Positions 13,361 to 61,051 of a stretch of 64,000 bases of DNA are shown in pieces (position 1 is the stretch's first letter; each line of letters starts with the position of its first letter). The notes below the pieces were generated by a model, which did no database searches, was not told the DNA's origin, and saw only the letters and a program-made list of their open reading frames with translations. The translations under genes were made by a program, and so were the position numbers. Source of the DNA: Thalassospira lucentensis. Lineage in GTDB: Bacteria; Pseudomonadota; Alphaproteobacteria; Rhodospirillales; Thalassospiraceae. The stretch covers positions 7,501 to 71,500 of the forward strand of contig NZ_CP136684.1 of assembly GCF_032921865.1 (NCBI RefSeq), written 5' to 3'.

Positions 13361-13925
13361 GGGAATGCCTCCGGAATTTTGCTTTGGGATCGAAGCATGA
13401 AAGTCATGACCATCATCTAGTTCGATCCGTGGTGGTTGCCACATCTTCGCAAGGAAAAAGCCCATTTGGCAATCGCAAACACCTTGCGTGCAATGCTTTG
13501 CAACAAGATTGCGTCTGGTTTCTGATATGGCGCGTTTTTTCGCAGAACCAGCCGATAAACGGTTGTTTTCCCCATCCACCCCACTCGGCTAAGGCAAGTT
13601 TCGCATGATTTAAGGCCGCAATCTTATGCCTTGGGGGAACAGATGGCTGCATTCATTTTTTTCGGTTTCAAACGATTCTGGTCAATTTCCCGGAGCAAAT
13701 CGGTTCGAGCTGATCATTCAGCCGGAAACAAAATAAATCTGTCAGCCACAAAGAACCCATATATTACAACCCATTATAACCCTGCATCCTTATTTCGTTA
13801 TCGAAAATTAAAATTCTTCATAATTTTCGCTTGCAATTATTTTGGGTGGTTCGTAACGTTTTTGAAAGAACAGAATGACAGTTGAGAACATCTGTCACAA
13901 ATCAGAGCAATCAGGGAGGAAGCGG
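13361..13925. other. 565-base intergenic region between gabD and glpD
   Basis: This divergent region holds the promoters of gabD and the glp operon. The only clear element is the GlpR-like palindrome at 13793-13806. The stretch at about 13740-13850 is AT-rich, as expected of promoter DNA. Short open frames here have no ribosome-binding sites and no recognisable content, so I see no gene. Confidence 0.5.
13792..13809. promoter_or_regulatory. probable GlpR (DeoR-family) operator upstream of glpD
   Basis: TTTCGTTATCGAAA is a near-perfect palindrome with TTTCG/CGAAA arms, about 120 bases upstream of the glpD start. It is continued by AATT as in the glpK site at 9991. The E. coli GlpR operators likewise carry TTCG and CGAA half-sites four bases apart. 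Assignment to GlpR is inference. Confidence 0.5.
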
Positions 13926-15467
13926 TTGCTCAATTCAGAAACATACGACATTGCCATCATTGGCGGTGGCATCAATGGCGCAGGCATTGCGCGTGATGCA
14001 TCCGGCCGTGGCCTCAAGGTCTTTCTTTGCGAAAAGAACGACCTTGCAAGTGCGACTTCATCGGCCAGCACAAAGCTGATCCATGGCGGGTTGCGTTATC
14101 TTGAGCATTACGAATTCCGCCTTGTGCGTGAGGCCCTGATCGAGCGCGAAGTGCTTTTGAACGCCGCCCCGCACATTATCTGGCCTCTTCGTTTCGTTCT
14201 GCCCCATGTCAAAGGATTGCGTCCGGCCTGGATGATCCGGCTGGGCCTGTTCCTGTATGATCACCTTGGCGGCCGTGAAAAACTTCCCGGTTCGGAAGGT
14301 ATCCGCCTGAAGCAGCATGTCGCCGGTGCGCCGCTGATTGCCGGCATGGAAAAGGCTTTCGTCTATTCCGATTGTTGGGTGCAGGATGCCCGTCTTGTCG
14401 TCCTTAACGCGATGGATGCACGTAATCGCGGTGCAGACATCCGGGTCGGAACCGAATGTGTTGCCGCCAGACGCGAGGGCGATCTGTGGTCTGTCACCGT
14501 TCGGGACAATGCCGGCGAACACACAGTCAAAGCTAGGTCACTGGTCAATGCCGCCGGTCCTTGGTGTGCGGAAATCCTTGAAAAACGTGTCGAAGCCAAA
14601 AAGAAACAGGGCATTCGCATGGTTCAGGGCAGCCACATCGTGGTGCCAAAGCTGTTTGACCATGATTACTGCTATATTTTCCAGAATCCGGATGGCCGTA
14701 TCGTTTTTGCCATCCCCTACGAACAGGATTTCACCCTGATCGGCACCACGGACCGCGATTATAAAGGCGATCCGTCAAAGGTTGCGATCAGCGCAGATGA
14801 AATCAGCTATCTGTGCGAACTCGCCAATACCTATTTCGCGCATAAAATCTCGCCAACCGATGTCGTCTGGTCCTATTCCGGCGTTCGTCCGCTTTACGGC
14901 GACGGCTCCGAAGATGCATCCCAGGTCACGCGCGACTATGTTCTTGAAATTGATAATGGCGACAAGGGTGCACCGCTTCTGAACATTTATGGCGGCAAAA
15001 TCACCACCTATCGCAAGCTAGCTGAATCAGCGATGAGCAAACTTTCCCCCTATCTCGGGATTGCAGATGATCGCTGGACCGATAGCGTCGCCCTTCCGGG
15101 CGGCGACATGCCAAATGGCGATTTCGAAAGCTATCTTGCTGCAATGCAAAAGAAATTTCCGTGGATTCCGGCGGCTCAACTCTACCGCTACGTGCGAAAC
15201 TACGGCACACTGACCCTCACCATCATTGGCGATGCATCAGACCTTTCCGGGCTGGGTACGCATCTTGGCGATGATATTTACGAATGCGAACTGCGCTATC
15301 TGGCGGATCAGGAATGGGCACGTACTGCCGATGACGTATTGTGGCGCCGATCCAAACTCGGCCTGCATCTGTCAAAGGATGCCCAGACCGCCATTGCGCA
15401 ATGGTTTGCGACTGAAACCAAATCGAATAACGCCGTGAAAACGGGCGAAGGAACAAATGTGAAATGA
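13926..15467 (+). CDS. glpD: aerobic glycerol-3-phosphate dehydrogenase
   Basis: About 513 residues. The N-terminus TYDIAIIGGGINGAGIARDASGRG region is the FAD-binding motif of GlpD, followed by KLIHGGLRYLE, and later YGGKITTYRKLAE. It is membrane-associated and oxidises glycerol 3-phosphate to dihydroxyacetone phosphate, feeding electrons to quinone. The start is probably the TTG at 13926, because the strong GGGAGGA lies five bases before it and the protein then begins like its relatives. An ATG at 13875 in frame has only a poor site. It is first in the glp importer operon, and its stop overlaps the glpS start by four bases. Confidence 0.93.
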   Translation: MLNSETYDIAIIGGGINGAGIARDASGRGLKVFLCEKNDLASATSSASTKLIHGGLRYLEHYEFRLVREALIEREVLLNAAPHIIWPLRFVLPHVKGLRPAWMIRLGLFLYDHLGGREKLPGSEGIRLKQHVAGAPLIAGMEKAFVYSDCWVQDARLVVLNAMDARNRGADIRVGTECVAARREGDLWSVTVRDNAGEHTVKARSLVNAAGPWCAEILEKRVEAKKKQGIRMVQGSHIVVPKLFDHDYCYIFQNPDGRIVFAIPYEQDFTLIGTTDRDYKGDPSKVAISADEISYLCELANTYFAHKISPTDVVWSYSGVRPLYGDGSEDASQVTRDYVLEIDNGDKGAPLLNIYGGKITTYRKLAESAMSKLSPYLGIADDRWTDSVALPGGDMPNGDFESYLAAMQKKFPWIPAAQLYRYVRNYGTLTLTIIGDASDLSGLGTHLGDDIYECELRYLADQEWARTADDVLWRRSKLGLHLSKDAQTAIAQWFATETKSNNAVKTGEGTNVK

Positions 15468-16564
15468 CCCTTACGCTTGAAAACATAACCAAGACCGTGG
15501 GAGGAGAAACCCACATCGACGACGTGTCGATGTCGCTGGAGCCGGGATCATTTAACGTCCTTCTCGGGCGGACCCTGGCGGGCAAAACGACGCTGATGCG
15601 CATTATGGCAGGTCTTGAACCACCAACCAGCGGGCGCATCCTCGTCAATGGCAACGATGTCACCGGCATGCCCGTTCAGAAACGCAACGTCGCGATGGTC
15701 TATCAGCAGTTCATCAATTATCCGTCGATGAGCGTCTATGACAATATCGCGTCCCCCTTGAAATTGCAGGGTGTCGACGCGGCTGAAGTCGAACGTCGCG
15801 TAAAATCCACCGCCGAACTGATGCATATCGAACATCTGCTTGATCGTCTGCCGCAGGAACTTTCGGGCGGTCAGCAACAGCGCACTGCGATGGCGCGCGC
15901 CATGGTCAAGGATTGCACCCTGCTTCTGCTTGACGAGCCGCTGGTCAACCTTGACTACAAACTGCGCGAAGAACTGCGTGAGGAAATCCCGAACCTTCTG
16001 GCGGAACGTGACACCATTGTCGTTTACGCCACCACCGAGCCGATGGAAGCCCTTTTGCTGGGTGGTAAATGTGCGGTGATGCATGAAGGCCGCGTCACCC
16101 AGTTTGGCCCGACCACGCAGGTTTATCACAATCCGGCCTTTGTCGAGACCGGCCTGATCTTTTCCGATCCGCCGATTAATCTCGTCAAGGCCGAGGTCCG
16201 TGATAGTGCTCTCTATCTGGCAAGCGGCCATCAGGTCCCGCTGAGCGGCCATCTTTCAGCCCTTACCGATGGACAATACACCATCGGGGTTCGCGCCAAT
16301 CACCTGTCGGTCGATCAGACCAGTGCCGAATGCGTTGCGATGCAGGGCCAGGTTGAACTGGCTGAAATCACCGGCTCGGAAACCTTTGTCCATGTTCATT
16401 TCAACGACGTTTCCTGGGTGATTCAGGAAGAAGGTGTGCACAACCCGCGGCTTGGCGAGGCGGCCACCTTCTATGTCGACCCCAAACGTCTGTTTGCCTA
16501 TGACGCCAATGATCGCCTTGTGGCGGCACCGCCTGTTGAAATTCAAAACGGCAAGGCCGCCTGA
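15464..16564 (+). CDS. glpS: glycerol ABC importer, ATP-binding subunit GlpS (H-loop His replaced by Thr)
   Basis: 366 residues, a CUT1-type (MalK/UgpC-like) ATPase with a C-terminal OB-type regulatory domain. Walker A is GRTLAGKT (35-42), the Q-loop is MVYQQF (78-83), the signature is an intact LSGGQ (133-137), and Walker B is LLLLDEP (153-159). The switch histidine of the H-loop, normally in VTHDQ, is Thr191 (YATTEP). So this subunit can supply a good signature to its partner, but its own site lacks the histidine needed for efficient hydrolysis. Gene order glpD-S-T-P-Q-U-V is that described for glycerol uptake in Rhizobium leguminosarum. Its ATG overlaps the glpD stop. Confidence 0.92.
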   Translation: MTLTLENITKTVGGETHIDDVSMSLEPGSFNVLLGRTLAGKTTLMRIMAGLEPPTSGRILVNGNDVTGMPVQKRNVAMVYQQFINYPSMSVYDNIASPLKLQGVDAAEVERRVKSTAELMHIEHLLDRLPQELSGGQQQRTAMARAMVKDCTLLLLDEPLVNLDYKLREELREEIPNLLAERDTIVVYATTEPMEALLLGGKCAVMHEGRVTQFGPTTQVYHNPAFVETGLIFSDPPINLVKAEVRDSALYLASGHQVPLSGHLSALTDGQYTIGVRANHLSVDQTSAECVAMQGQVELAEITGSETFVHVHFNDVSWVIQEEGVHNPRLGEAATFYVDPKRLFAYDANDRLVAAPPVEIQNGKAA

Positions 16565-16579
16565 GGTTGGAGAACTAAA

Positions 16580-17674
16580 ATGGCACGTATCGATCTTAAA
16601 AGCCTTGCGCATTCATACTTCCCCGAACCGAAAGGGGACGAGGATTACGCCCTTCGCCGCATGGAACATGTCTGGGAAGATGGCGGGGCTTATGCCCTTC
16701 TTGGCCCGTCGGGCTGCGGCAAGACGACTTTGCTTAACATCATTTCCGGCCTTCTGACCCCGTCCGAGGGACAGGTCCTGTTTGATGGCAAGGACGTCAC
16801 CAAACTGGCCCCCGAAGAACGCAATATCGCGCAGGTTTTCCAATTCCCGGTCATTTACGACACCATGACCGTTTACGAAAACCTTGCCTTTCCGCTGCGT
16901 AACCGCGGTGTTGATCCCAAACGGGTTGATGAACGGGTGCGAGAAATTGCCGGAATGCTCGACCTGACCGGCAAGCTGAAACAAAAAGCGCGTGGTCTGG
17001 GTGCGGATGAAAAGCAGACGATCTCGCTTGGCCGCGGATTGGTCCGCGACGATGTTTCGGCAATCCTGTTTGACGAACCGCTAACCGTGATCGACCCGCA
17101 TCTGAAATGGGTCCTGCGCCGCAAGCTCAAGGAAATTCACAACAAACTGCGCCCGACCATGGTCTATGTGACCCATGACCAGGTCGAAGCCCTGACATTT
17201 GCCGATAAGGTCGTTGTCATGTATGGCGGCAAGGTCGTGCAGCTTGGTACCCCGCAGGAACTGTTTGAAAATCCGGCCCATACCTTTGTCGGCTACTTCA
17301 TCGGAAGCCCGGGCATGAATATCATGCCGTGTAATATCGATGCCGGTGCGGCCTGGATTGATGGCAAACGCATCGCACTTTCGGATCGCCACATGGAAGC
17401 CGTTTCCAAGGCATCCGGGCAGATTGAACTTGGCATCCGTCCCGAATTCCTGCGCATCGAAACCGACAGCGGTTCCGAAGGCGATAACGGGATCGAGGTC
17501 AATATCGTCAAGGTCGAAGACCTCGGCCAATACAAGATCGCAACCACCCGGTTCGGCTCGTCCGAAATGAAGGTCAAGGTCAGCGAAGATCAGCAGATCA
17601 CCGGCCAAAGCGGCATCCTCCGGTTCGCACCGGAATGGACCAAGCTTTACGCCGACAGCCAGCTGGTCGCATGA
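16580..17674 (+). CDS. glpT: glycerol ABC importer, ATP-binding subunit GlpT (degenerate signature motif)
   Basis: 364 residues, the partner CUT1-type ATPase. Walker A GPSGCGKT (42-49), Walker B AILFDEP (161-167) and the H-loop VTHDQ with His199 are all intact. The LSGGQ signature is replaced by LGADE (140-144) ahead of the usual LGRGL helix. The lesions in GlpS and GlpT are therefore complementary: GlpT's nucleotide-binding half plus the GlpS signature makes a canonical site, and the other pairing is degenerate. The subunit ends with an OB-type regulatory domain. It starts 16 bases after glpS behind GGTTGGAGAA. Do not confuse it with the E. coli GlpT antiporter. Confidence 0.92.
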   Translation: MARIDLKSLAHSYFPEPKGDEDYALRRMEHVWEDGGAYALLGPSGCGKTTLLNIISGLLTPSEGQVLFDGKDVTKLAPEERNIAQVFQFPVIYDTMTVYENLAFPLRNRGVDPKRVDERVREIAGMLDLTGKLKQKARGLGADEKQTISLGRGLVRDDVSAILFDEPLTVIDPHLKWVLRRKLKEIHNKLRPTMVYVTHDQVEALTFADKVVVMYGGKVVQLGTPQELFENPAHTFVGYFIGSPGMNIMPCNIDAGAAWIDGKRIALSDRHMEAVSKASGQIELGIRPEFLRIETDSGSEGDNGIEVNIVKVEDLGQYKIATTRFGSSEMKVKVSEDQQITGQSGILRFAPEWTKLYADSQLVA

Positions 17675-17687
17675 GGGGGATGGGGAA

Positions 17688-18560
17688 ATGAACAAGATTA
17701 CCAACAATAAGGCATGGTTCCTCGTCCTGCCGGTCTTCTTTATCGTCGCAATCAGCGCAATCATTCCGCTGATGACGGTTGTGAACTATTCGGTGCAGGA
17801 TATTTTCGATCCGCAAACCCGTTTCTTTGTCGGGGCGGACTGGTTCCGTCAGGTCCTTGAAGACAGCCGCCTGCATGATGCCCTGATCCGTCAGATCATC
17901 TATACCGGCAGCGTGCTGTTCATTGAAATTCCTCTGGGAATCGGCATAGCTTTAACGCTGCCACGCAAAGGTTGGGGCGTTTCGGCCTGCATGGTTCTTC
18001 TGGCTTTGCCGTTGCTTATTCCATGGAACGTGGTCGGCACCATCTGGCAGATTTTTGGTCGTGCCGATATCGGTCTTGGCGGTTATGCACTCAACATGAT
18101 CGGCATGGACTATAATTACAGCCAGAACCCGATGGATGCCTGGGTGACCGTTCTTGTCATGGATGTGTGGCACTGGACTAGCCTGATTGTCCTTCTGTGC
18201 TATGCCGGTCTTCGTTCGATCCCGGATGCCTATTATCAGGCTGCCAAGATCGATGGTGCGTCGAACTGGGCCGTGTTCCGGTTTATCCAGCTTCCGAAAA
18301 TGCAGTCGGTCCTCGTGATCGGTGTTCTGCTGCGCTTTATGGACAGCTTCATGATCTATACCGAGCCTTTCGTGCTTACGGGCGGCGGGCCAGGTACGGC
18401 TACCACATTCCTCAGCCAGTTTTTGGTCACGATTGCTGTGGGTCAGTTCGACCTTGGTCCGGCTGCGGCATTCTCGCTGATTTACTTCCTGATCATTCTA
18501 TTGGTTTGCTGGGTTTTCTATACCGTCGTGATGAACGCCGGAAAGCGGGAGGAACAATAA
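17688..18560 (+). CDS. glpP: glycerol ABC importer, permease GlpP
   Basis: 290 residues with six predicted membrane spans, first at about 9-29. The cytoplasmic EAA-type coupling loop is present as YYQAAKIDGASNWAVFRFIQLP, the usual contact with the ATPases in CUT1 importers. It resembles UgpA/MalF-type permeases. It follows glpT by 13 bases behind GAGGGGGA and precedes glpQ by a single base, so translation is coupled. It forms the transmembrane heterodimer with GlpQ. Confidence 0.92.
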   Translation: MNKITNNKAWFLVLPVFFIVAISAIIPLMTVVNYSVQDIFDPQTRFFVGADWFRQVLEDSRLHDALIRQIIYTGSVLFIEIPLGIGIALTLPRKGWGVSACMVLLALPLLIPWNVVGTIWQIFGRADIGLGGYALNMIGMDYNYSQNPMDAWVTVLVMDVWHWTSLIVLLCYAGLRSIPDAYYQAAKIDGASNWAVFRFIQLPKMQSVLVIGVLLRFMDSFMIYTEPFVLTGGGPGTATTFLSQFLVTIAVGQFDLGPAAAFSLIYFLIILLVCWVFYTVVMNAGKREEQ

Positions 18561-18561
18561 A

Positions 18562-19365
18562 ATGCGGTTCCAGAAACGTCATATCGCACTTCTTCTTTAT
18601 ATCGTGTTCCTGTTGCTGCCGATCTATTGGTTGTTCAACATGTCGATCAAGACCAATTCGGAAATCCTGGGCGCAATGACCCTGTTCCCGGATAATCCGA
18701 CACTGGCGAACTATGCGACCATCCTGACCGATCCGGCATGGTATTCAGGCTATATCAACTCGATGATCTATGTCGGGATCAACGTTGTGATCTCGCTTCT
18801 GGTTGCCCTGCCCGCGGCATATGCTTTTTCCCGCTATAACTTCACGGGTGACAAGCATCTGTTCTTCTGGCTTCTGACCAACCGCATGGCACCGCCTGCC
18901 GTGTTCCTGCTGCCGTTTTTCCAGCTTTATTCAAGTGTCGGCCTGTTCGACACCCATATCGCTGTGGCGCTTGCACATTGCCTGTTCAACGTGCCGCTGG
19001 CGGTCTGGATCCTCGAAGGTTTCATGTCGGGTATTCCAAAGGAAATCGACGAAACCGCCTATATCGACGGTTATTCCTTCCCGCGCTTCTTCACCACGAT
19101 ATTCATTCCGCTGATCCGTTCGGGCATCGGTGTGACGGCCTTCTTCTGCTTCATGTTCAGCTGGGTTGAACTGTTGCTGGCACGCACCCTGACGTCGGTC
19201 GATGCCAAACCGATCGTGGCCACCATGACCCGTACCGTATCGGCGTCGGGGCTTGATTGGGGTGTTCTGGCGGCTGCGGGAGTTCTGACAATCGTGCCTG
19301 GCGCGTTGGTGATCTGGTTCGTTCGCAACTACATCGCCAAGGGCTTCGCGATGGGTCGTGTGTAA
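18562..19365 (+). CDS. glpQ: glycerol ABC importer, permease GlpQ
   Basis: 267 residues, six predicted spans, UgpE/MalG-like. The coupling loop is IPKEIDETAYIDGYSFPRFFTTIFIPL. The C-terminus has the family's VRNYIAKGFAMGRV ending. It pairs with GlpP in the inner membrane. It lies one base after glpP, with AGGAGG within the end of that gene. Despite the name it is unrelated to the periplasmic glycerophosphodiesterase GlpQ of enterobacteria. Confidence 0.92.
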   Translation: MRFQKRHIALLLYIVFLLLPIYWLFNMSIKTNSEILGAMTLFPDNPTLANYATILTDPAWYSGYINSMIYVGINVVISLLVALPAAYAFSRYNFTGDKHLFFWLLTNRMAPPAVFLLPFFQLYSSVGLFDTHIAVALAHCLFNVPLAVWILEGFMSGIPKEIDETAYIDGYSFPRFFTTIFIPLIRSGIGVTAFFCFMFSWVELLLARTLTSVDAKPIVATMTRTVSASGLDWGVLAAAGVLTIVPGALVIWFVRNYIAKGFAMGRV

Positions 19366-19390
19366 TCGGAAAACAGGAAGGAATAAAACA

Positions 19391-19663
19391 ATGACTTGGA
19401 TGGCCTGGACCCCGATTACCGCCGTGTTCTTTTCCTGCATCATCCTGATGCTGATCGGAATGGGAATATGGCAGGCAGTCTCGCCGACTGTTCCACGCCG
19501 GGGCTTTTTACCCCTGACGACAACCCGCGGGGATCGCCTTTTCATCGGTTTGCTTGGTGCAGCCTATATCCATCTTGGCTTTATGGCATTTAGCGATGCC
19601 GCCATCTGGATCGCATCAATCGTTGCCCTTTTCTGGCTCATCATCGTGATGCGCTGGGGCTGA
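19391..19663 (+). CDS. glpU: small membrane protein GlpU (DUF2160 family)
   Basis: 90 residues, three predicted membrane spans, beginning MTWMAWTP and containing RLFIGLLGAAYIHLGF. It matches the small DUF2160 protein encoded between glpQ and glpV in rhizobial glycerol importer operons. Its molecular role is unknown; its constant position suggests an accessory transporter subunit or assembly factor. The start at 19391 has AGGAAGGA ahead of it, better than the upstream in-frame codon at 19358. Confidence 0.85.
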   Translation: MTWMAWTPITAVFFSCIILMLIGMGIWQAVSPTVPRRGFLPLTTTRGDRLFIGLLGAAYIHLGFMAFSDAAIWIASIVALFWLIIVMRWG

Positions 19664-19799: not shown

Positions 19800-21551
19800 A
19801 TGATCGTCAAAGCCAAAGGCTCCTCTGCCATTATTAAAGGCAGTGCAGTTGCGGTCGCACTCGGTCTTGCAGTCTTTGCCAATCCGGCAGCAGCAGACCA
19901 GTACACCGACGCGGCAAAAAAATGGATCGATAGCGAATTCCAGCCGTCGAGCCTTGATAAAGATGCCCAGATGGCCGAACTCGAATGGTTCATCAAGGCA
20001 GCCGAGCCGTTCCGCGGCATGGAAATCAACGTGGTGTCCGAAACCATCACCACGCACGAATATGAATCAAAGGTTCTGGCCAAAGCCTTCTCGGAAATCA
20101 CCGGGATCAAGCTGACCCATGACCTGATCGGTGAAGGCGACGTGATCGAAAAACTGCAGACCCAAATGCAGTCCGGTCGTAATATTTATGACGCCTACAT
20201 CAATGACTCCGACCTGATCGGCACGCATTCGCGTTACGATGCGGTCGTTCCGCTGACCGACTTCATGGCCGGCGAAGGCAAGGACGTTACCTCGCCGACA
20301 CTCGACCTTGAAGACTTCATCGGCCTGTCCTTCACCACCGGTCCGGATGGCAAACTTTATCAGCTTCCCGACCAGCAGTTCGCGAACCTTTACTGGTTCC
20401 GTTATGACTGGTTCCAGCGTGAAGACCTGCAGAAGCAGTTCAAGGACAAATACGGCTATGACCTGGGTGTTCCGGTCAACTGGTCGGCCTACGAAGACAT
20501 CGCCGAATTCTTCACCAATGACGTGAAAGAAATCGACGGTAAAAAAGTCTATGGTCACATGGACTACGGCAAAAAAGACCCGTCCCTGGGTTGGCGCTTC
20601 ACTGACGCGTGGCTTTCGATGGCTGGCGCTGGTGACAAGGGCATCCCGAACGGTCTTCCGGTTGATGAATGGGGTATTCGCGTTGAAGGCTGCGCACCTG
20701 CAGGTTCCAGCGTCACCCGTGGTGGTGCGGCAAACGGCCCGGCGGCTGTTTACGCTCTGACCAAATACATCGACTGGCTCAAAGCCTATGCCCCGCCAGA
20801 AGCAGCCGGCATGACCTTTGGCGAAGCCGGCCCGGTTCCGGCACAGGGTCAGATCGCCCAGCAGATCTTCTGGTACACCGCCTTCACCGCCGACATGGCG
20901 AAAAAAGGCACCCCGGTTGTGAATGAAGATGGCACGCCGAAATGGCGTATGGCACCTTCGCCGCACGGCCCGTACTGGGAAGAAGGCATGAAGCTCGGCT
21001 ATCAGGACGTGGGTTCCTGGACTCTCATGAAGTCCACCCCGCCGGAACGCCGTCAGGCAGCATGGCTGTACGCACAGTTCGTGACCTCGAAAACAACCTC
21101 GCTGAAAAAGACCCTGACCGGTCTGACCCCGATCCGTCAGTCTGACCTGGATACCCAGGCCATGAGTGACATCGCGCCGAACTGGGGCGGTCTGGTTGAA
21201 TTCTATCGTTCCCCGGCCCGCGTCCAGTGGTCGCCGACCGGTACCAACGTTCCGGATTACCCGAAACTGGCTCAGCTCTGGTGGCAGAACGTTGCCGAAG
21301 CTGTAACCGGCGAACGGACCCCGCAGGAAGCCATGGATAACCTTGCAACGGCGATGGACCGCGTTCTGGAACGTCTTGAACGTGCAGGCATCGGTGGCGA
21401 ATGCGCACCGAAACTGAACGAGGAACAGGATGCACAGTACTGGTTCGACCAGCCCGGTGCTCCGAAGCCGAAACTTGATAACGAAAAACCGCAGGGTGAG
21501 ACCGTCAAATACGACGATCTGATCGCGGAATGGAGTGCGGCCCAGAAATAA
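19800..21551 (+). CDS. glpV: glycerol ABC importer, periplasmic substrate-binding protein GlpV
   Basis: 583 residues, long for a binding protein but usual for GlpV. A Sec signal peptide (basic start, hydrophobic 16-28, cleavage near ANPAAA/DQ at 32-33) sends it to the periplasm. The mature part has the extracellular solute-binding fold, with Trp/Tyr-rich segments such as NLYWFRYDWF. A strong GGGAGGA precedes the ATG. It follows glpU by 136 bases, the largest gap in the operon, so it may be expressed separately or more strongly. A weak hairpin lies just downstream of its stop. Confidence 0.92.
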   Translation: MIVKAKGSSAIIKGSAVAVALGLAVFANPAAADQYTDAAKKWIDSEFQPSSLDKDAQMAELEWFIKAAEPFRGMEINVVSETITTHEYESKVLAKAFSEITGIKLTHDLIGEGDVIEKLQTQMQSGRNIYDAYINDSDLIGTHSRYDAVVPLTDFMAGEGKDVTSPTLDLEDFIGLSFTTGPDGKLYQLPDQQFANLYWFRYDWFQREDLQKQFKDKYGYDLGVPVNWSAYEDIAEFFTNDVKEIDGKKVYGHMDYGKKDPSLGWRFTDAWLSMAGAGDKGIPNGLPVDEWGIRVEGCAPAGSSVTRGGAANGPAAVYALTKYIDWLKAYAPPEAAGMTFGEAGPVPAQGQIAQQIFWYTAFTADMAKKGTPVVNEDGTPKWRMAPSPHGPYWEEGMKLGYQDVGSWTLMKSTPPERRQAAWLYAQFVTSKTTSLKKTLTGLTPIRQSDLDTQAMSDIAPNWGGLVEFYRSPARVQWSPTGTNVPDYPKLAQLWWQNVAEAVTGERTPQEAMDNLATAMDRVLERLERAGIGGECAPKLNEEQDAQYWFDQPGAPKPKLDNEKPQGETVKYDDLIAEWSAAQK

Positions 21552-21757: not shown

Positions 21758-24034
21758 GTGAATACCGCGATTAAAAAACGTCGCGCTGGCCTTGGCATTC
21801 AAGGCCGGCTCATGGCTTCTTTTGCCCTGATTCTGGTACTGGCCGGTATTTCATCGGTGGTTTCCTGGATCTCGTTTGGCAACAGTCGGGCACTTGTCGC
21901 CGACATCACCACCGACAGCCTGCCTTCAATCATCCGGCAGATGGAACTTGCCATGGATGGTGTCGGACTGGCGGCTCAGGCACCGGTTCTGGCCACATCC
22001 CGCAATGCCGATGAACTGGCTGAAGCTGAGGCACGCCTTGATGCCCTGATCAGTGATGCCCGCACCCGCCTTGGCGAAATTGCCGTAACCAATCCGGAAC
22101 CCCTGATGCTGCCCGTCGCCGCGGCGGATGCCGAAGCTGACGCAACTGCAGGTAACACCGAAATACCGGATCAGAATCCTGATCAAGCGGAGGAGCAGAC
22201 CGGGGAGCCGACACAAACCGTTGCCGTCGATGCGATTGAAACCCTGACTGCACAGCTTGACGATATTGTTGCCCGCCGCAATACGCTTCATGAATTGACC
22301 ATGCAGCGGCTTGAACTTGAAAGGCAGCGTGGTGAACTGACTCTTGATATGGTCTTTGCCTATAGCGACCTTTCGGAATTCATCAATCCGCTGGTCGAGG
22401 TTGTCGATATCGATGTATCGCGCGGCATATCGCGTATTGCCGGGGGCAATAGCGATGCAGCGGGCGAACTTGAAGAAACCATCAAATTTTCCCAGCTAAT
22501 TTCGGAAATCCGCTCCAATGTGAACCTTGCATTCGGCATGCTGACCGCGGCCATCGCCGTGCCAGAAGGCGATGCCATGGACGAAGTCCGCAATCAGTGG
22601 AGCTGGGCGGAACTTCGCATTTCGGACGCACTGGAAAAACTACCTGATAACAATGATGGCACCCAGATCAAAAAACTGGCCGAGGCATTGATGGTTTATG
22701 GTGCTGGCAAAGACAGCGTTTTTGATCTGCGTGAAACCGAATGGGATAATCAGTACAAAACCGAGCAAACCCTTGAAGCGACCCTGACCAGCGCCGAAGC
22801 GCTGAGCGCATCCATCGAACAACTGGTCGATGCCAAACGTCTTGAGGTCGATAACAGTGCAGCGAATGCCCTGTCGCAGGTGGTTCGCGATCAGCAGGTG
22901 ATTGCCCTGATCGGTATTGCGGTTCTGGTGATCTCGCTTCTGATCCTGATTTTCTATGTCCGGGGTAACCTGATCAAACGCCTGCTCCGCGTAATTGACG
23001 GCATGCGCCGTGTGGCGAATGGCGATCTTTCGACCGAGGTTCGCGATACCGGTCGCGATGAAATCGGTCGCATGGCCGAAATTCTCGGCCAGTTCCGCGA
23101 AACCAGCCTTGCCGCCCAGCGGGCCGAGGAAAATGTCGCCCGCGAACGCGAAATCGCCGAAACCGAACGTCGCCGCGCCATGCTGGAACTGGCCGACGCG
23201 TTCGAGGCATCGGTGATGCAGGTCGCAAAGGATGTGTCACGCGAAGCCGAAAACATCCAGACAACATCCAATCAGGTGCGTGAACAGGCAGAAATCGCAT
23301 CTAGCAATGCCACCGGCGTTGCCGGTGCGTCCGAGGAAATATCGATCAATATGGCGTCCGTTTCCGAGGCGGCGCAATCGCTGTCCGAACGCGTGCGTGA
23401 TACCGGCCTTCGTGCCCAGCAGTCGGTGAATGCCGCGACCAACGCAGTCGATGCTGCCCGTCAAACCAGCGACACCATGCACGAACTTGAAACCGGTGCC
23501 CAGGAAATCGGTGAAATCCTTAACCTTATTCAGGATATCGCCGCCCAAACGAACCTTTTGGCCCTGAATGCAACGATCGAGGCCGCCCGTGCAGGCGACG
23601 CGGGCAAAGGCTTTGCCGTCGTGGCACAAGAGGTCAAAAACCTTGCCAATCAGACCGGCACGGCAACCGACCGGATTGCCCAGCGCATCACCGGTATCCA
23701 GACAACAACCGGTGTCGCGGTACAGGCCATCGCCACCATCCGCGACAGCATCACCGGCATTCACGAAACGGTCGGCGAAATGTCGGCGGCCGTCGACGAA
23801 CAGCAGGAATTTGTCGCCGAAATCGCCAGCAACGTCGAACAATCCGCCATCGCCGCCAGCGAAATGAATGCAACGATTGCACAGGTCAGCACCGCCGCAG
23901 GCGACAATCTGCAGGCCGTCGATGGCCTGCGTCAAGCAACAGATCGCCTGCGTCATCAATCGGACGACCTCGGGAAACGCGTGCGCGACTTCCTTGACTC
24001 CATCCGATCCGAGCAAACGGCAGCAACACGATAG
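21758..24034 (+). CDS. methyl-accepting chemotaxis protein
   Basis: 758 residues starting at a GTG with GGGAGG ahead. Membrane span 1 is at about 21-42, followed by a large periplasmic sensor region. Span 2 is at about 385-402 ([20 protein letters not shown]). HAMP covers about 403-455. The signalling domain has the conserved hairpin tip [23 protein letters not shown] near 590-612 and [15 protein letters not shown]. The periplasmic part holds an acidic, low-complexity insertion at about 120-152. There is no CheR-tethering pentapeptide. The ligand is unknown; its place just after the glycerol importer operon makes glycerol-related taxis a speculation only. Confidence 0.9.
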
Positions 24035-56301: not shown

Positions 56302-56377
56302 ATATTCATGCAGCCTGCTTTGCCGGATGCGATCCGCGATTTTGCAACGGCACCGAATTCTTGCGAGTTTCCGCCCA

Positions 56378-57154
56378 ATGTTCGATCTGAAAAATGTCTC
56401 CTTCCAAAGCGAAGGCAAGAACCCGAAAACGCTGCTGGGCGATATTTCGGTGTCCTTCCCAACCGGCGAATTCAGCGCGATTGTCGGACATAACGGATCG
56501 GGTAAAAGCACGCTTTTGAAATTGCTGGCGCGGAAAAACAAACCTGCATCCGGCCAGATCACACTTGATACCCAAATCCTTGATACGCACAGCACGCGTG
56601 ATTTCGCCCGCAAGGTCGCCTACCTACCGCAAAGCCCGATTGTGCCTGCCCATCTCAGCGTGCGCGAACTGGTCTCCTTTGGCCGCTACCCTTGGCGCGG
56701 GGCCTTTGGCCGCTATCGGTCGGACGATCACGAAAAAATCGAACGCGCCATGGAAATGACCCACGTTACCGATTTTGCCGACCGCTTTGTCGCAAGCCTT
56801 TCGGGCGGGGAACGCCAACGCGTCTGGCTTGCCATGCTGCTTGCCCAGGATGCACCGGTTCTGCTGCTTGATGAACCGACATCTGCCCTTGATGTCGGAC
56901 ATCAACGCGACATCTTGCAACTTGTCGCCAATCTTAAATCAGCAATCGGTCTGACCGTGATTGCGGTTCTGCATGATATCGACATGGTGGGGCGCTTTGC
57001 TGATCATATCCTCGCCCTTCGTGGCGGTCGCACCTGCTGGCAGGGAACAGCGGGCGATTTCATGCAGGCCGATACGCTTCGCGATATTTTCCAAACCGAA
57101 ATCGGGGTGATCCGCCTGCCGGAATCCGCTCATTATGTCAGCTACATAGCTTAG
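56378..57154 (+). CDS. iron-siderophore ABC transporter ATP-binding protein (FhuC/FecE-like)
   Basis: About 258 residues. Walker A GHNGSGKST, Q-loop YLPQSP, signature LSGGERQRVWLAMLLAQ, Walker B VLLLDEPTSALD and H-loop VLHDID are intact, with the FhuC/FecE-type RYPWRG segment. It drives uptake of ferric siderophores through the fused permease at 59042. The ATG at 56378 starts right at the domain; the Shine-Dalgarno is weak, and the open frame extends 17 codons further up. A Fur box lies upstream. Confidence 0.88.
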   Translation: MFDLKNVSFQSEGKNPKTLLGDISVSFPTGEFSAIVGHNGSGKSTLLKLLARKNKPASGQITLDTQILDTHSTRDFARKVAYLPQSPIVPAHLSVRELVSFGRYPWRGAFGRYRSDDHEKIERAMEMTHVTDFADRFVASLSGGERQRVWLAMLLAQDAPVLLLDEPTSALDVGHQRDILQLVANLKSAIGLTVIAVLHDIDMVGRFADHILALRGGRTCWQGTAGDFMQADTLRDIFQTEIGVIRLPESAHYVSYIA

Positions 57155-57164
57155 GGTCCTGACC

Positions 57165-58106
57165 ATGCGAAACCGCCTGATCGCTTCAATCGCCTGTTCC
57201 TGCGTGATTGCTACCGGCATCCTTGCCCCGACCATCGCCCCGTCAATCGCGCTGGCTGAAACCTATACCCACGAAATGGGAACGGTGAATTTTGCGACCC
57301 CACCGAACCGGATTGCCGTATCGAACTGGTCACTGACCGAAACGGTTTTGGCCCTTGGCATTGCCCCGGTCGCCATACCCGAGGCTGACGGATATCGCGA
57401 ATGGGTGGTCGAACCGGCATTGCCCGCCAAGTTTGTCGATCTTGGCACCCGCATGGCCCCGAATTTTGAAGCCCTGCGCGACAGCCGCCCCGAAGTCATC
57501 CTGATAAGCAGCGACGTCGCCATGGCCTATGACAAACTTTCGGCCTTCGCGCCGACCATGGTCTATTCGATCTATAACACCGACCAGCCTGCTCTCGACA
57601 GGGCCGAAGACCTGATGCGCAATGTCGGCCAACTGACTGGGCGCAGTGACAAAGCCGAAGAAATCATCGCATCTGCCAATCAACGTATTGCTACCGCCGC
57701 CGATCGCATCCGCAAGGCGGTTGGCGACGATGCGAAATTCGCGGTCGTGCGCATCCTCGACGATGCCCATTTCCGCATTCACGGTACCACATCGCTTTTC
57801 GGATCGACGCTGGCGCGGATGGGTTTTGCCAATACCTGGACCGGCCCGGTCAATGGCTGGGGGTTCAGCAACGGCGAAATTGGTGACCTGGCCAAACTTG
57901 GCCCGGCCCACTTCGCCTATATCGAACCGACACCCGCGGCGGTTAAAACCAAACTGTTTGGCTCCCCGGTCTGGAAAGCATTACCTTTCAACCGGCAAAA
58001 TACCGTTTATGAAGTCCCGACAAGCTGGACATTCGGTGGAATTTTGTCGGCAGTACGTTTTGCCGAACAGCTTGCCGACGCCATCACCGACGCACACGGA
58101 TCGTAA
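57165..58106 (+). CDS. iron-siderophore ABC transporter substrate-binding protein 1
   Basis: 313 residues. A signal peptide (hydrophobic 7-30, cleavage near ALA/ET at 31) precedes a FhuD/FecB-type binding domain: RIAVSNWSLTETVLALGIAPV, FEALRDSRPEVILISS, and a final domain with NTVYEVPTSWTFGGILSAVRFAEQL. It presents a ferric siderophore to the fused permease. It is one of two tandem paralogues, ten bases after the ATPase gene. The siderophore is unknown, and there are no biosynthesis or receptor genes in the window. Confidence 0.87.
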   Translation: MRNRLIASIACSCVIATGILAPTIAPSIALAETYTHEMGTVNFATPPNRIAVSNWSLTETVLALGIAPVAIPEADGYREWVVEPALPAKFVDLGTRMAPNFEALRDSRPEVILISSDVAMAYDKLSAFAPTMVYSIYNTDQPALDRAEDLMRNVGQLTGRSDKAEEIIASANQRIATAADRIRKAVGDDAKFAVVRILDDAHFRIHGTTSLFGSTLARMGFANTWTGPVNGWGFSNGEIGDLAKLGPAHFAYIEPTPAAVKTKLFGSPVWKALPFNRQNTVYEVPTSWTFGGILSAVRFAEQLADAITDAHGS

Positions 58107-58112
58107 ATCGAT

Positions 58113-59045
58113 ATGACCAGATACCTGTTTCTTTGCCTGTCCGTGATCGCCGGTTTGACCGCACCTCTTGCACCCAAAATGGCAATCGCCGAACCTGTCA
58201 CGATTGAGCATGAACGCGGCACACTGACCCTTGACGCACCGGCAAAACGCGTTGCGGTAACGAACTGGGCCACGACCGAAACGGTCATTGCTCTTGGGCT
58301 TGATCCGGTCGCGATTGCCGATCCCGATGACTATCTCGATTGGGTTGCCAAACCTGACCTTCCCGAAAACTTCACCGACATCGGCCAGCGCGCGGCCCCC
58401 AATATCGAAGCCCTGCGCGATGCCAAGCCCGACCTGATCGTGATCAGCAAGGATCTTGAAATGGCATATGACAATTTCAATGCCATCGCCCCAACCATTG
58501 TTCTGTCGATCTATAACAACAACCTCGATGCCCTGCCCGAAGCCCGTAAACTTTTCGATACACTCGCCAAAGCCACCGGGCGCGAGGTAGAAGCCGCCGC
58601 ATGGCTTGCCGATGCCGATGACAAATTCGCCGAATATGGTGCTCGCATCCGGGCTGCCATGCCACCGGGCCGCGCCCTTGCAATCACCCAGTTCGTATCC
58701 GAAAGCCATATCGGGCTTTATGGCAAATCGTCCCTGCCCGGCACCGTCCTGGCGAAAATGGATCTACCACTGGCCTATCAGGGTCCGGTCAACAATTGGG
58801 GCTTTGCCAAGGGGGGCGTCGAAATCCTTGGCCCGCGTGCACAGGATACGCTGGTGTACCTGAACCCGGTACCCGATGTGATCCGCGAAAAGGTCTGGGC
58901 ATCGCCGGTGTGGAAAATCCTTGATTTCGTTCGCAACGACCGGGTTTACGAACTGCCTGTCGTCTGGGCATATGGCGGCATGCCATCCGCCCTGCGCTTT
59001 GCCCGGCTTCTTGCCGAAAGCATGGAAAGTGGCCCGGTTAAATGA
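58113..59045 (+). CDS. iron-siderophore ABC transporter substrate-binding protein 2
   Basis: 310 residues, with a signal peptide (cleavage near IA/EP at about 25). It is collinear with the preceding gene product along its full length (RVAVTNWATTETVIALGLDPV, IEALRDAKPDLIVISK, PVVWAYGGMPSALRFARLL), so it arose by tandem duplication. The two differ at many positions, which suggests different ligands sharing one permease. It lies six bases after its paralogue and overlaps the permease start by four bases. Confidence 0.87.
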   Translation: MTRYLFLCLSVIAGLTAPLAPKMAIAEPVTIEHERGTLTLDAPAKRVAVTNWATTETVIALGLDPVAIADPDDYLDWVAKPDLPENFTDIGQRAAPNIEALRDAKPDLIVISKDLEMAYDNFNAIAPTIVLSIYNNNLDALPEARKLFDTLAKATGREVEAAAWLADADDKFAEYGARIRAAMPPGRALAITQFVSESHIGLYGKSSLPGTVLAKMDLPLAYQGPVNNWGFAKGGVEILGPRAQDTLVYLNPVPDVIREKVWASPVWKILDFVRNDRVYELPVVWAYGGMPSALRFARLLAESMESGPVK

Positions 59046-61051
59046 GCGGCGAAACGAGTCGTGACATGAGCCGGTTTTTCTATCGCGGCCCGGCGCTCCT
59101 ATGCCTTGCACTTGCAATCTGTTCGGTTGCCATCCTGATCAATGATCTTTGGCCGTTCCTTCAAAAGGGGGCCGGGATGAATGTGCTGTTTCATCCCGAC
59201 GAAACTGATTTCGATCAGATCCTGTTTCATTTCAGCACCCTGCCTCGGATCACAATGGCCTTTATCTGTGGTGCCGGTTTGGCCCTCGCCGGGGCAGCGA
59301 TCCAGACGGTATTGCGTAATCCGCTCGCATCTCCGACGACCCTTGGTGTCGGTGCAGGTGTTGAATTTGCCCTGACGGTTTTCCTGCTTCTGGCCCCGGC
59401 GGCACTCGCCCAGTTCAAAGAAGCCGCGGCCCTTGCCGGTGGCATGATCGCCCTTGGCGCGGTTTACCTGATTGCATCGCGGCGCGCCAATGCGACGCTT
59501 TGGCTGATACTGGCCGGGATGATCATCAATCTGATGCTGCAATCGGGTACGCAGATTTTTCTGCTGTTTAACGAACAGTATCTGCAATCGGTATTCATGT
59601 GGGGGGCGGGTGACCTCGCGCAAAACGGCTGGGACTCAACGCAGTTTGTTTTGCCCCGCCTGCTGGTCGGTGTTGCTGTTGTTCTGCTTCTCTCGCGCCC
59701 GCTTGATCTTCTTGCCCTTGGCGACGACACCGCAAGCTCACTTGGTGCTCGCGTCACCATCTTGCGGCTGTTGATCCTGGGCTTTGCCGTTTTCATTACT
59801 GCATCGGTCATTTCGACTGCCGGGTTGATCGGTTTTATCGGTCTGGCCGTCCCTGCCGCCCTGCGTATTGCCGGTCTGACACGTTCGCGCGATCTGATGA
59901 TCTATTCGCTGTTGACCGGCGGCTTTGCACTATTGTGTATCGACTTTATTGTCCGGCAGATGAACGGGCTTGATGGCGACATCGTTCCAACTGGTGCAGC
60001 CACTGCCTTGATCGGCGCACCATTTATTATACTGATCCTGCGCAAGGCCCGGATCATGCCTGGCCAACAAAGCGAGGACCATCATCCAGATCAGCACATT
60101 GTGTCGAAAAATCTGCTGAGCCTCCTGCTGGTATTAGGGCTGGTTACAGGCTTGGGCTTATCCTTGTTTGTGTCGTTTAACGGTCATGATTTCGTATTTC
60201 TGACTGGTGGTGAAAGCTTCCATGACATCGTCCTCCAGCGTTCCGAACGGACCTTTGCCGCGATCATTTGCGGCGCGGCTCTCGCGGTTTCAGGCACGTT
60301 AATTCAGCGCGTCGGGCGCAACCCATTGGCCAGCCCGGAAATCACCGGCGTCAGTTCTGCCACCGCACTCGCCATGATCATCGCCCTTGTTTTCTTTGGC
60401 TTCGGACAACGTGCCGAACTGATGTTTGTCGGTGCTGCCGGCGGGATCATTTCGCTGATCGTCCTGCTACTGCTATGCCGGAAATTCACCCACGCCCCGC
60501 ATTACCTGTTGCTAAACGGCCTGGCCTTAACTGCCATTTTGGGCGCGATTGTTCGCATTGCGCTGACCCGCAGTGGCACGCAAACATCAATGCTGATTTC
60601 GTGGCTGGCGGGCACAACCTATTTCACCCGCATGGACGAAGTCCTGATCGTCGCGGGGGTCACCGCAGCCTTGCTGGTTGTGGTGATTGCGGTGCGCCGC
60701 CCGCTTGAGCTGGCGTCATTTGGCAATGATCAGGCCACCTCGCTTGGCCTTGGCATTTCAGGTTTCCAGTTCTTCATCATGCTGCTTGCCGCCATCCTTG
60801 CCGCCAGTGCAACGCTGCTTGTCGGACCACTCAGCTTCGTCGGGCTGATGGCCCCGCATCTCGCACGGATTGCCGGTTACCGGCTTGCGGGGGGGCATTT
60901 GCTGGGCGCAGTTCTGATCGGGGCGAATGTGATGATGGTTGCCGAATGGATGGCCAGAAATATGCTCTATCCCCAGCAATTACCAACCGGCCTGATCGCC
61001 GCCCTGATCGGAACGGCGTATTTCCTGTTTCTGGCAATCCGCAAACGCTAG
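59042..61051 (+). CDS. fused FecCD-type iron-siderophore permease (FhuB-like)
   Basis: 669 residues, two FecCD permease units in one chain, as in FhuB. Each half has about ten spans and its own signature: LRNPLASPTTLGVGAGVEFAL near 95 and GRNPLASPEITGVSSATAL near 422, with the DDTASSLGARV and NDQATSLGLGI segments near the end of each. A charged linker at about 340-358 joins them. It needs one ATPase dimer, encoded upstream. The ATG overlaps the stop of the second binding-protein gene. Its stop overlaps the convergent His-rich gene by four bases. Confidence 0.92.
   Translation: MSGETSRDMSRFFYRGPALLCLALAICSVAILINDLWPFLQKGAGMNVLFHPDETDFDQILFHFSTLPRITMAFICGAGLALAGAAIQTVLRNPLASPTTLGVGAGVEFALTVFLLLAPAALAQFKEAAALAGGMIALGAVYLIASRRANATLWLILAGMIINLMLQSGTQIFLLFNEQYLQSVFMWGAGDLAQNGWDSTQFVLPRLLVGVAVVLLLSRPLDLLALGDDTASSLGARVTILRLLILGFAVFITASVISTAGLIGFIGLAVPAALRIAGLTRSRDLMIYSLLTGGFALLCIDFIVRQMNGLDGDIVPTGAATALIGAPFIILILRKARIMPGQQSEDHHPDQHIVSKNLLSLLLVLGLVTGLGLSLFVSFNGHDFVFLTGGESFHDIVLQRSERTFAAIICGAALAVSGTLIQRVGRNPLASPEITGVSSATALAMIIALVFFGFGQRAELMFVGAAGGIISLIVLLLLCRKFTHAPHYLLLNGLALTAILGAIVRIALTRSGTQTSMLISWLAGTTYFTRMDEVLIVAGVTAALLVVVIAVRRPLELASFGNDQATSLGLGISGFQFFIMLLAAILAASATLLVGPLSFVGLMAPHLARIAGYRLAGGHLLGAVLIGANVMMVAEWMARNMLYPQQLPTGLIAALIGTAYFLFLAIRKR

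Follow-up and report, generated by a model that had tools for sequence, protein, structure and literature searches.

Here, we describe an asymmetry between GlpS and GlpT, the two ATPases of a putative glycerol importer of the ATP-binding cassette (ABC) type, which are encoded side by side in a 64,000-nucleotide stretch of the Thalassospira lucentensis genome (contig NZ_CP136684.1, positions 7,501 to 71,500; this whole stretch is called the window, and coordinates follow its own numbering). GlpS has kept the signature motif and lost the switch His, GlpT has kept the switch His and lost the signature motif, and these lesions are predicted to fall in one and the same composite ATP site. The asymmetry is confirmed as a trait of the family and, judging from the motifs, the system is likely to be a MalK-type importer in which a GlpS-GlpT heterodimer hydrolyzes ATP at one site and uses the other as a structural element. 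The novelty lies in a MalK-family member with a fixed and predicted one-engine layout, and in the way this layout converges with that of two further groups of importers.

Both open reading frames are present on the forward strand (+), as are all genes and motifs of the row, with glpS at 15464..16564 (366 amino acids) and glpT at 16580..17674 (364 amino acids), each encoding a MalK-type ATPase. A residue-level reading bears out the motif assignments of the original prediction. GlpS has the signature LSGGQ (residues 133-137; 15860..15874) and, at the switch-His position within YATTEP (188-193), Thr191 (codon 16034..16036); GlpT has the canonical switch His199 (codon 17174..17176) within YVTHDQ (196-201) and, at the signature position, LGADE (140-144; 16997..17011), in which Asp143 replaces the second Gly. 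Neither chain unites LSGGQ with a switch His, the combination of MalK-type (CUT1) ATPases. The Walker A motif of GlpS, GRTLAGKT (35-42; 15566..15589), keeps Lys41 and Thr42 and has lost the Gly of its fourth position, residue 38; it is followed by the Q-loop VYQQF (79-83), the Walker B motif LLLLDEP (153-159) with an intact Asp157-Glu158 (15932..15937), and a D-loop of ordinary form, LVNLD (160-164; 15941..15955). In GlpT, the corresponding elements are the Walker A motif GPSGCGKT (42-49; 16703..16726), the Q-loop VFQFP (86-90), the Walker B motif AILFDEP (161-167) with Asp165-Glu166 (17072..17077), and the D-loop LTVID (168-172; 17081..17095), which is unlike the usual LSNLD.

In ABC ATPase dimers, the Walker A motif, Walker B motif and H-loop of one chain combine with the signature of the other chain to form one site, as described in the available part of PMC7756269. 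By this composite-site rule, the switch and Walker A changes of GlpS and the signature change of GlpT are predicted to lie in the same composite site, and the other site, which joins the GlpT nucleotide-binding half to the GlpS signature, is predicted to be canonical, in agreement with the original prediction; this geometry is assigned by the rule, with residue equivalence taken from sequence alignments rather than from a model of the dimer. Two deviations that had not been predicted, the loss of Gly38 in GlpS and the LTVID D-loop of GlpT, would belong to this degenerate site as well. For LTVID, we base this assignment on the position of the D-loop at the center of the interface (PMC7756269, in the part available), and it is accordingly a presumptive one.

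Fixation of the asymmetry in the GlpS and GlpT families

We compared 162 GlpS and 165 GlpT sequences, including those of the window, chosen by identity to the window proteins (45% and 52%, respectively), a choice by which divergent members could be missed; the GlpS set leaves out L133 and L180, in which GlpS does not lie in one frame, and L162, which sits at a contig edge. The raw counts are redundant because some named loci and G-coded genomes represent the same organism, and reduction at 90% identity (114 GlpS, 119 GlpT) left the result unchanged. LSGGQ is present in all 162 GlpS, in which residue 191 is Thr (149) or Ser (13) and never His. Conversely, YVTHDQ with its switch His is found in all 165 GlpT and LSGGQ in none. 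The lesions are therefore not strain-specific, as they would have been had close homologs carried His at position 191 of GlpS or LSGGQ in GlpT. The pattern spans Pseudomonadota and Thermodesulfobacteriota, the named loci outside Pseudomonadota including those of the sulfur- and sulfate-reducing Desulfuromusa and Desulfosarcina, and the closest named loci share 89-92% identity with the GlpT of the window. Strain-specific decay, with the operon dying in this Thalassospira alone, is an explanation for which we found nothing in favor; it has next to no probability and is ruled out by the same pattern in both family sets across the two phyla.

The remaining motifs differ in how tightly they are held. 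Lys41, Thr42, Gln81, Asp157 and Glu158 are invariant in all 162 GlpS, as is the D-loop in the form L[A/V]NLD; Gly38 is lost in 151 and kept in 11. The Walker B Asp-Glu is equally invariant in GlpT (165/165), and the Walker A Lys and Q-loop Gln are invariant in both families. At the GlpT signature, few sequences share LGADE (7 of 162 pairs), most reading L[T/S]AD-x-KQK. Within this segment, position 143 is Asp in 164 of the 165 sequences and Ala in the other, and Lys145 and Gln146 occur in every one, as does the LTVID D-loop; positions 141 and 144 are variable (entropy 1.43 and 2.40).

The fixation across two phyla and the retention of particular non-consensus residues make specialization of the subunits, as originally proposed, likely in preference to decay. 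A neutral ratchet, in which the presence of two genes made the second site expendable and let the lesions accumulate by drift, leaving an asymmetry without a function of its own, would fit the free variation at positions 141 and 144 of GlpT, and an importer running on a single site could bear such losses. However, drift of this kind does not readily explain why Asp143, Lys145, Gln146 and LTVID are held, Asp143 and LTVID being unusual residues, and other importer lineages acquired the split as well, so we regard the ratchet as improbable. Moreover, Asp143 and LTVID are non-consensus yet held about as tightly as the catalytic residues, which suggests a separate role for the second site.

GlpS and GlpT also travel together. 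Separate searches for GlpS, GlpT and the DUF2160 protein of the same gene row in 398 Pseudomonadota genomes found each in 85 genomes, and the three sets are identical; those for GlpS and GlpT used profiles, were free of an identity limit and scored five candidates per genome. Each of these genomes has one GlpS and one GlpT above a clear score gap, at which the scores drop from 447 to 313 bits for the GlpS model and from 487 to 308 bits for the GlpT model; in all 161 loci that have both genes, glpS lies directly before glpT on the same strand. MalK-type ATPases are usually homodimeric, which would be in line with separate GlpS and GlpT homodimers in different complexes. Against this stand the identical distribution with one copy of each, and the single gene row with two different permeases; in addition, pairing of GlpT with itself would leave both signatures defective and neither site canonical, and a GlpS homodimer would lack the switch His at either site. 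We consider separate homodimers very improbable.

Outside the two families, the canonical arrangement prevails. LSGGQ, YVTHDQ and LSNLD are all present in 40 of 40 high-scoring ATPases from related genomes, which were taken from the top of two score lists with some rows skipped and are mostly near relatives, and none of these 40 is an intermediate between GlpST and canonical MalK. LSGGQ and His are likewise found in all 14 intact MalK-like ATPases of the window's own genome and in E. coli MalK and UgpC. Since the asymmetry is fixed in the family and absent from the 14 own-genome and 40 outside ATPases, it reflects more than chance. A split gene, L224, was excluded from the own-genome controls; it encodes a MalK-like ATPase divided between two frames that overlap, of 176 and 264 amino acids (C2:3760100-3762500), lies about 2 kb from the intact L208, and reflects either a frameshift in the gene or an error of sequencing.

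Phylogenetic home and comparable splits in other transporters

The predicted structures of GlpS (mean predicted local distance difference test score, pLDDT, 90.2) and GlpT (mean pLDDT 87.9) match the MalK fold over 360 residues of 4khz_B (Z 39.8, root-mean-square deviation, rmsd, 2.7) and the MalK-like fold over 352 residues of 2it1_B (Z 38.7, rmsd 2.3), respectively. Both proteins have the full-length MalK fold with the C-terminal OB-type domain of CUT1 ATPases, and such confident models, matching MalK over almost the full length, fit intact proteins of the MalK kind. Neither is a fused chain with two nucleotide-binding domains, nor does either fall in the CUT2 or Liv clades. The best NCBIfam match of both is UgpC (NF008653), with scores of 273.3 bits for GlpS and 283.9 bits for GlpT that lie below its curated cut-off of 432 bits.

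In a tree of 76 ATPase domains, GlpS and GlpT each form a clean clade within MalK/CUT1 (31-row clade, 100/96), and the RbsA-type and Liv ATPases form a separate 26-row branch (100/95). Without the motif columns, the tree again recovered the 31-row clade, at 100/97, and the MalK group as a whole, at 100/99. The 22 other CUT1 rows are canonical, so both lesions most simply arose in the Glp lineage, and the nesting of GlpS and GlpT in an otherwise canonical family argues for an independent, convergent origin of the asymmetry. The trees differ on whether the two proteins are sisters: their long stems meet in a separate tree, GlpT groups with other CUT1 rows at 94/85 in the 76-domain tree, and GlpS and GlpT are joined at 79/38 in the tree without the motif columns.

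The original prediction held that importers rarely show this kind of asymmetry, and our comparisons refute this view. Among 13 E. coli K-12 importers, picked for their non-identical ATPases and thus a chosen set and not a full census, eight show the split in trans, namely all seven of the RbsA type (RbsA, MglA, AraG, XylG, LsrA, AlsA and YtfR) and LivF/LivG. In each, the switch His is missing from the chain or half that has an LSGG-type signature, and the His-bearing partner lacks LSGGQ. The peptide and nickel ATPases, for which the comparison covers E. coli, have two canonical sites in OppDF, DppDF, DdpDF, NikDE and GsiA, save for small signature variants such as FSGGM. E. coli SapD and SapF (L299), annotated as an exporter (putrescine) and kept outside the count of 13, are unlike the other peptide-type pairs examined in that both chains deviate, SapD reading LTEGE and SapF reading LAPGQ with Gln at the switch.

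Beyond E. coli, the split is present in all 33 LivF-LivG loci, with Gln (32) or Lys (1) at the LivF switch position, and in all 30 RbsA-type loci, with Ser (29) or Ala (1) at the switch position of the C-terminal half; both sets consist of best-scoring matches rather than a random sample. Together with the E. coli locus, these Liv loci are L204, L310 and L313-L344; the 33 do not include two loci of the window's own genome, L311, a LivF-type protein alone, and L312, a fused frame. One half of L312 has the switch His (LVEHDM), and its other half combines LSGGE with Gln (LVDQMA). In Bacillus subtilis, a degenerate second site was already published for RbsA and NupO (PMC11466899, in the part available). 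The uniform splits in the Liv and RbsA-type loci indicate that the split is a workable importer design, and the asymmetry is unusual only within the MalK/CUT1 family.

Like GlpST, RbsA-type (CUT2) ATPases lack the switch His (C half) and LSGGQ (N half, 30/30) at one site, and the C half of E. coli RbsA reads SSE where GlpS reads TTE; they differ from GlpST in their fused halves, their distant clade and the change of the C-half Walker A Lys to Arg (28/30). In the same way, LivF carries [LM]SGGE without a switch His and LivG carries the His without LSGGQ, but the Liv (HAAT) chains are shorter and belong to another clade, and LivG keeps the second signature Gly (33 scored) where GlpT has Asp. The exporters TAP, CFTR, TM287/288 and Pdr5 also combine one consensus and one degenerate composite site, and the deviant Pdr5 signature, LNVEQ, is acidic as well (PMC7756269, same part); these systems differ in fold and direction, and their Walker B Glu is often altered, whereas it is kept here. 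Finally, MalK2 of MalFGK2, UgpC and other CUT1 ATPases share with GlpS and GlpT the fold, including the C-terminal OB-type domain, and the phylogenetic home, but have two canonical sites, as seen in the E. coli, own-genome and outside ATPases described above. On balance, we favor the view that, outside the peptide/nickel group, importers with non-identical ATPases repeatedly converged on a signature-keeper without His and a reverse partner, with one hydrolytic site, and that GlpST adds a further lineage to the two others examined, CUT2 and Liv, and gives the MalK family a natural member with a single engine.

Predicted cycle of the GlpST importer

In the mechanism suggested by these motifs, the nucleotide half of GlpT (Walker A, Walker B and His199) would close on LSGGQ of GlpS to form the hydrolytic site that drives the cycle. 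The nucleotide half of GlpS, without Walker A Gly38 and with Thr191, would close on L-x-A-D-x of GlpT near LTVID. This second site would probably take up ATP and keep the two chains joined, with hydrolysis poor or nil, and about one ATP may be spent per glycerol. The ancestors would have been MalK-type ATPases working as identical pairs and, after there were two genes, each could have lost an element needed only by the other site. Glycerol is the probable solute, as we infer from the adjoining glpD and from homologs described, in the parts of those papers available, as glycerol transporters (PMC7912956; PMC11223650).

Several observations weigh against a structural second site. The putatively dead site retains the Walker A Lys, the Q-loop Gln and the catalytic Glu in every GlpS; the variability of positions 141 and 144 of GlpT points to partial relaxation; and the presence of Gly38 in 11 of 162 GlpS implies that its change is not essential. 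Moreover, a change of the Walker B Glu, the second commonest alteration of human degenerate sites (PMC7756269, in the part available), is absent in GlpS. The term degenerate, as originally applied to this site, may be too strong given that Lys, Thr, Gln and Asp-Glu are kept in all 162 GlpS, which makes ATP binding likely and slow hydrolysis possible.

The same invariant residues, Lys41, Thr42, Gln81, Asp157 and Glu158, would support hydrolysis at both sites, the Thr/Ser191-LxADx site being slower and tuned rather than dead, with a working Lys41, Gln81 and Glu158. We consider this unlikely: four elements (Gly38, switch His, signature and D-loop) are altered jointly in most of the family, and an Asp takes the place of the second signature Gly, the residue expected to contact the gamma-phosphate. 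In other ABC proteins, replacement of the second signature Gly, as in CFTR G551D, or of the switch His is crippling. We believe that one hydrolytic and one structural site remain the better account of the GlpS-GlpT pair.

Gene row, known relatives and meaning of the asymmetry

The gene order in the window is glpD (glycerol-3-phosphate dehydrogenase, 13875..15467), which is the first gene of the row and overlaps glpS by four bases, then glpS, glpT, the BPD_transp_1 permease genes glpP (17688..18560, permease 1) and glpQ (18562..19365, permease 2), a gene for a small DUF2160 (PF09928) membrane protein (19358..19663), and glpV, encoding an SBP_bac_1 solute-binding protein (19800..21551). The row thus contains the complete GlpSTPQV set of two ATPases, two permeases, DUF2160 protein and binding protein, with glpD adjoining. 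A chemoreceptor gene (HAMP, MCPsignal; window 21758-24034) follows glpV. Elsewhere, at 56327-61051, the window holds another importer with one ABC ATPase, two consecutive binding-protein genes and a 669-amino-acid permease with two FecCD stretches.

The closest known system is the GlpSTPQV glycerol importer of Rhizobium leguminosarum VF39, known to us through the available part of PMC7912956, which matches the row of the window in its genes, glpD and DUF2160 among them, and in their order. Its homolog on pRL9 of Rhizobium johnstonii 3841 has the same ATPase motif pattern as GlpS and GlpT of the window; there, a GlpR-type regulator gene precedes the row and glpK follows it, in the place where the window has the chemoreceptor gene (glpK was not looked for in the remainder of the window). 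Plasmid relatives of GlpQ share either 75-96% or 33-39% identity among the matches listed (60 of 311 records). Homologs in Cupriavidus metallidurans, a six-gene transporter with two ATPases, and in a Ralstonia have been described as glycerol transporters (PMC7912956; PMC11223650, as far as their available text goes), and the C. metallidurans homolog, when derepressed, has been linked to zinc and cadmium resistance (PMC7912956, available part). A word search of the main text of the C. metallidurans paper (PMC7912956) returned no 'Walker', 'signature', 'degenerate' or 'heterodim', and the titles, abstract openings and passages covered by the literature searches, none of which asked about LivF/LivG, contained no mention of ATP-site asymmetry in GlpS/GlpT.

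At six loci (L088-L092 and L122), a second operon encodes a DUF2160-like protein that is shorter and matches weakly, a permease resembling GlpQ (37-40% identical) and one ATPase, which is canonical. These operons represent a related importer in which the small membrane protein is present and the asymmetry is not, and the DUF2160 protein alone is therefore not tied to it.

Whether an importer spends one or two ATP per substrate is a long-standing question that has been studied mostly in MalFGK2. There, one gene, malK, is used twice and supplies both ATPases, so a mutation normally hits both sites. GlpST is made from two genes within the MalK family, and each site is therefore alterable alone. 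If our reading is true, the architecture of the maltose transporter would not require two matched sites, and the saving of one ATP per glycerol may be an advantage to the bacteria that carry the system. More broadly, the comparison corrects the view of asymmetric ATP sites as mainly a trait of exporters.

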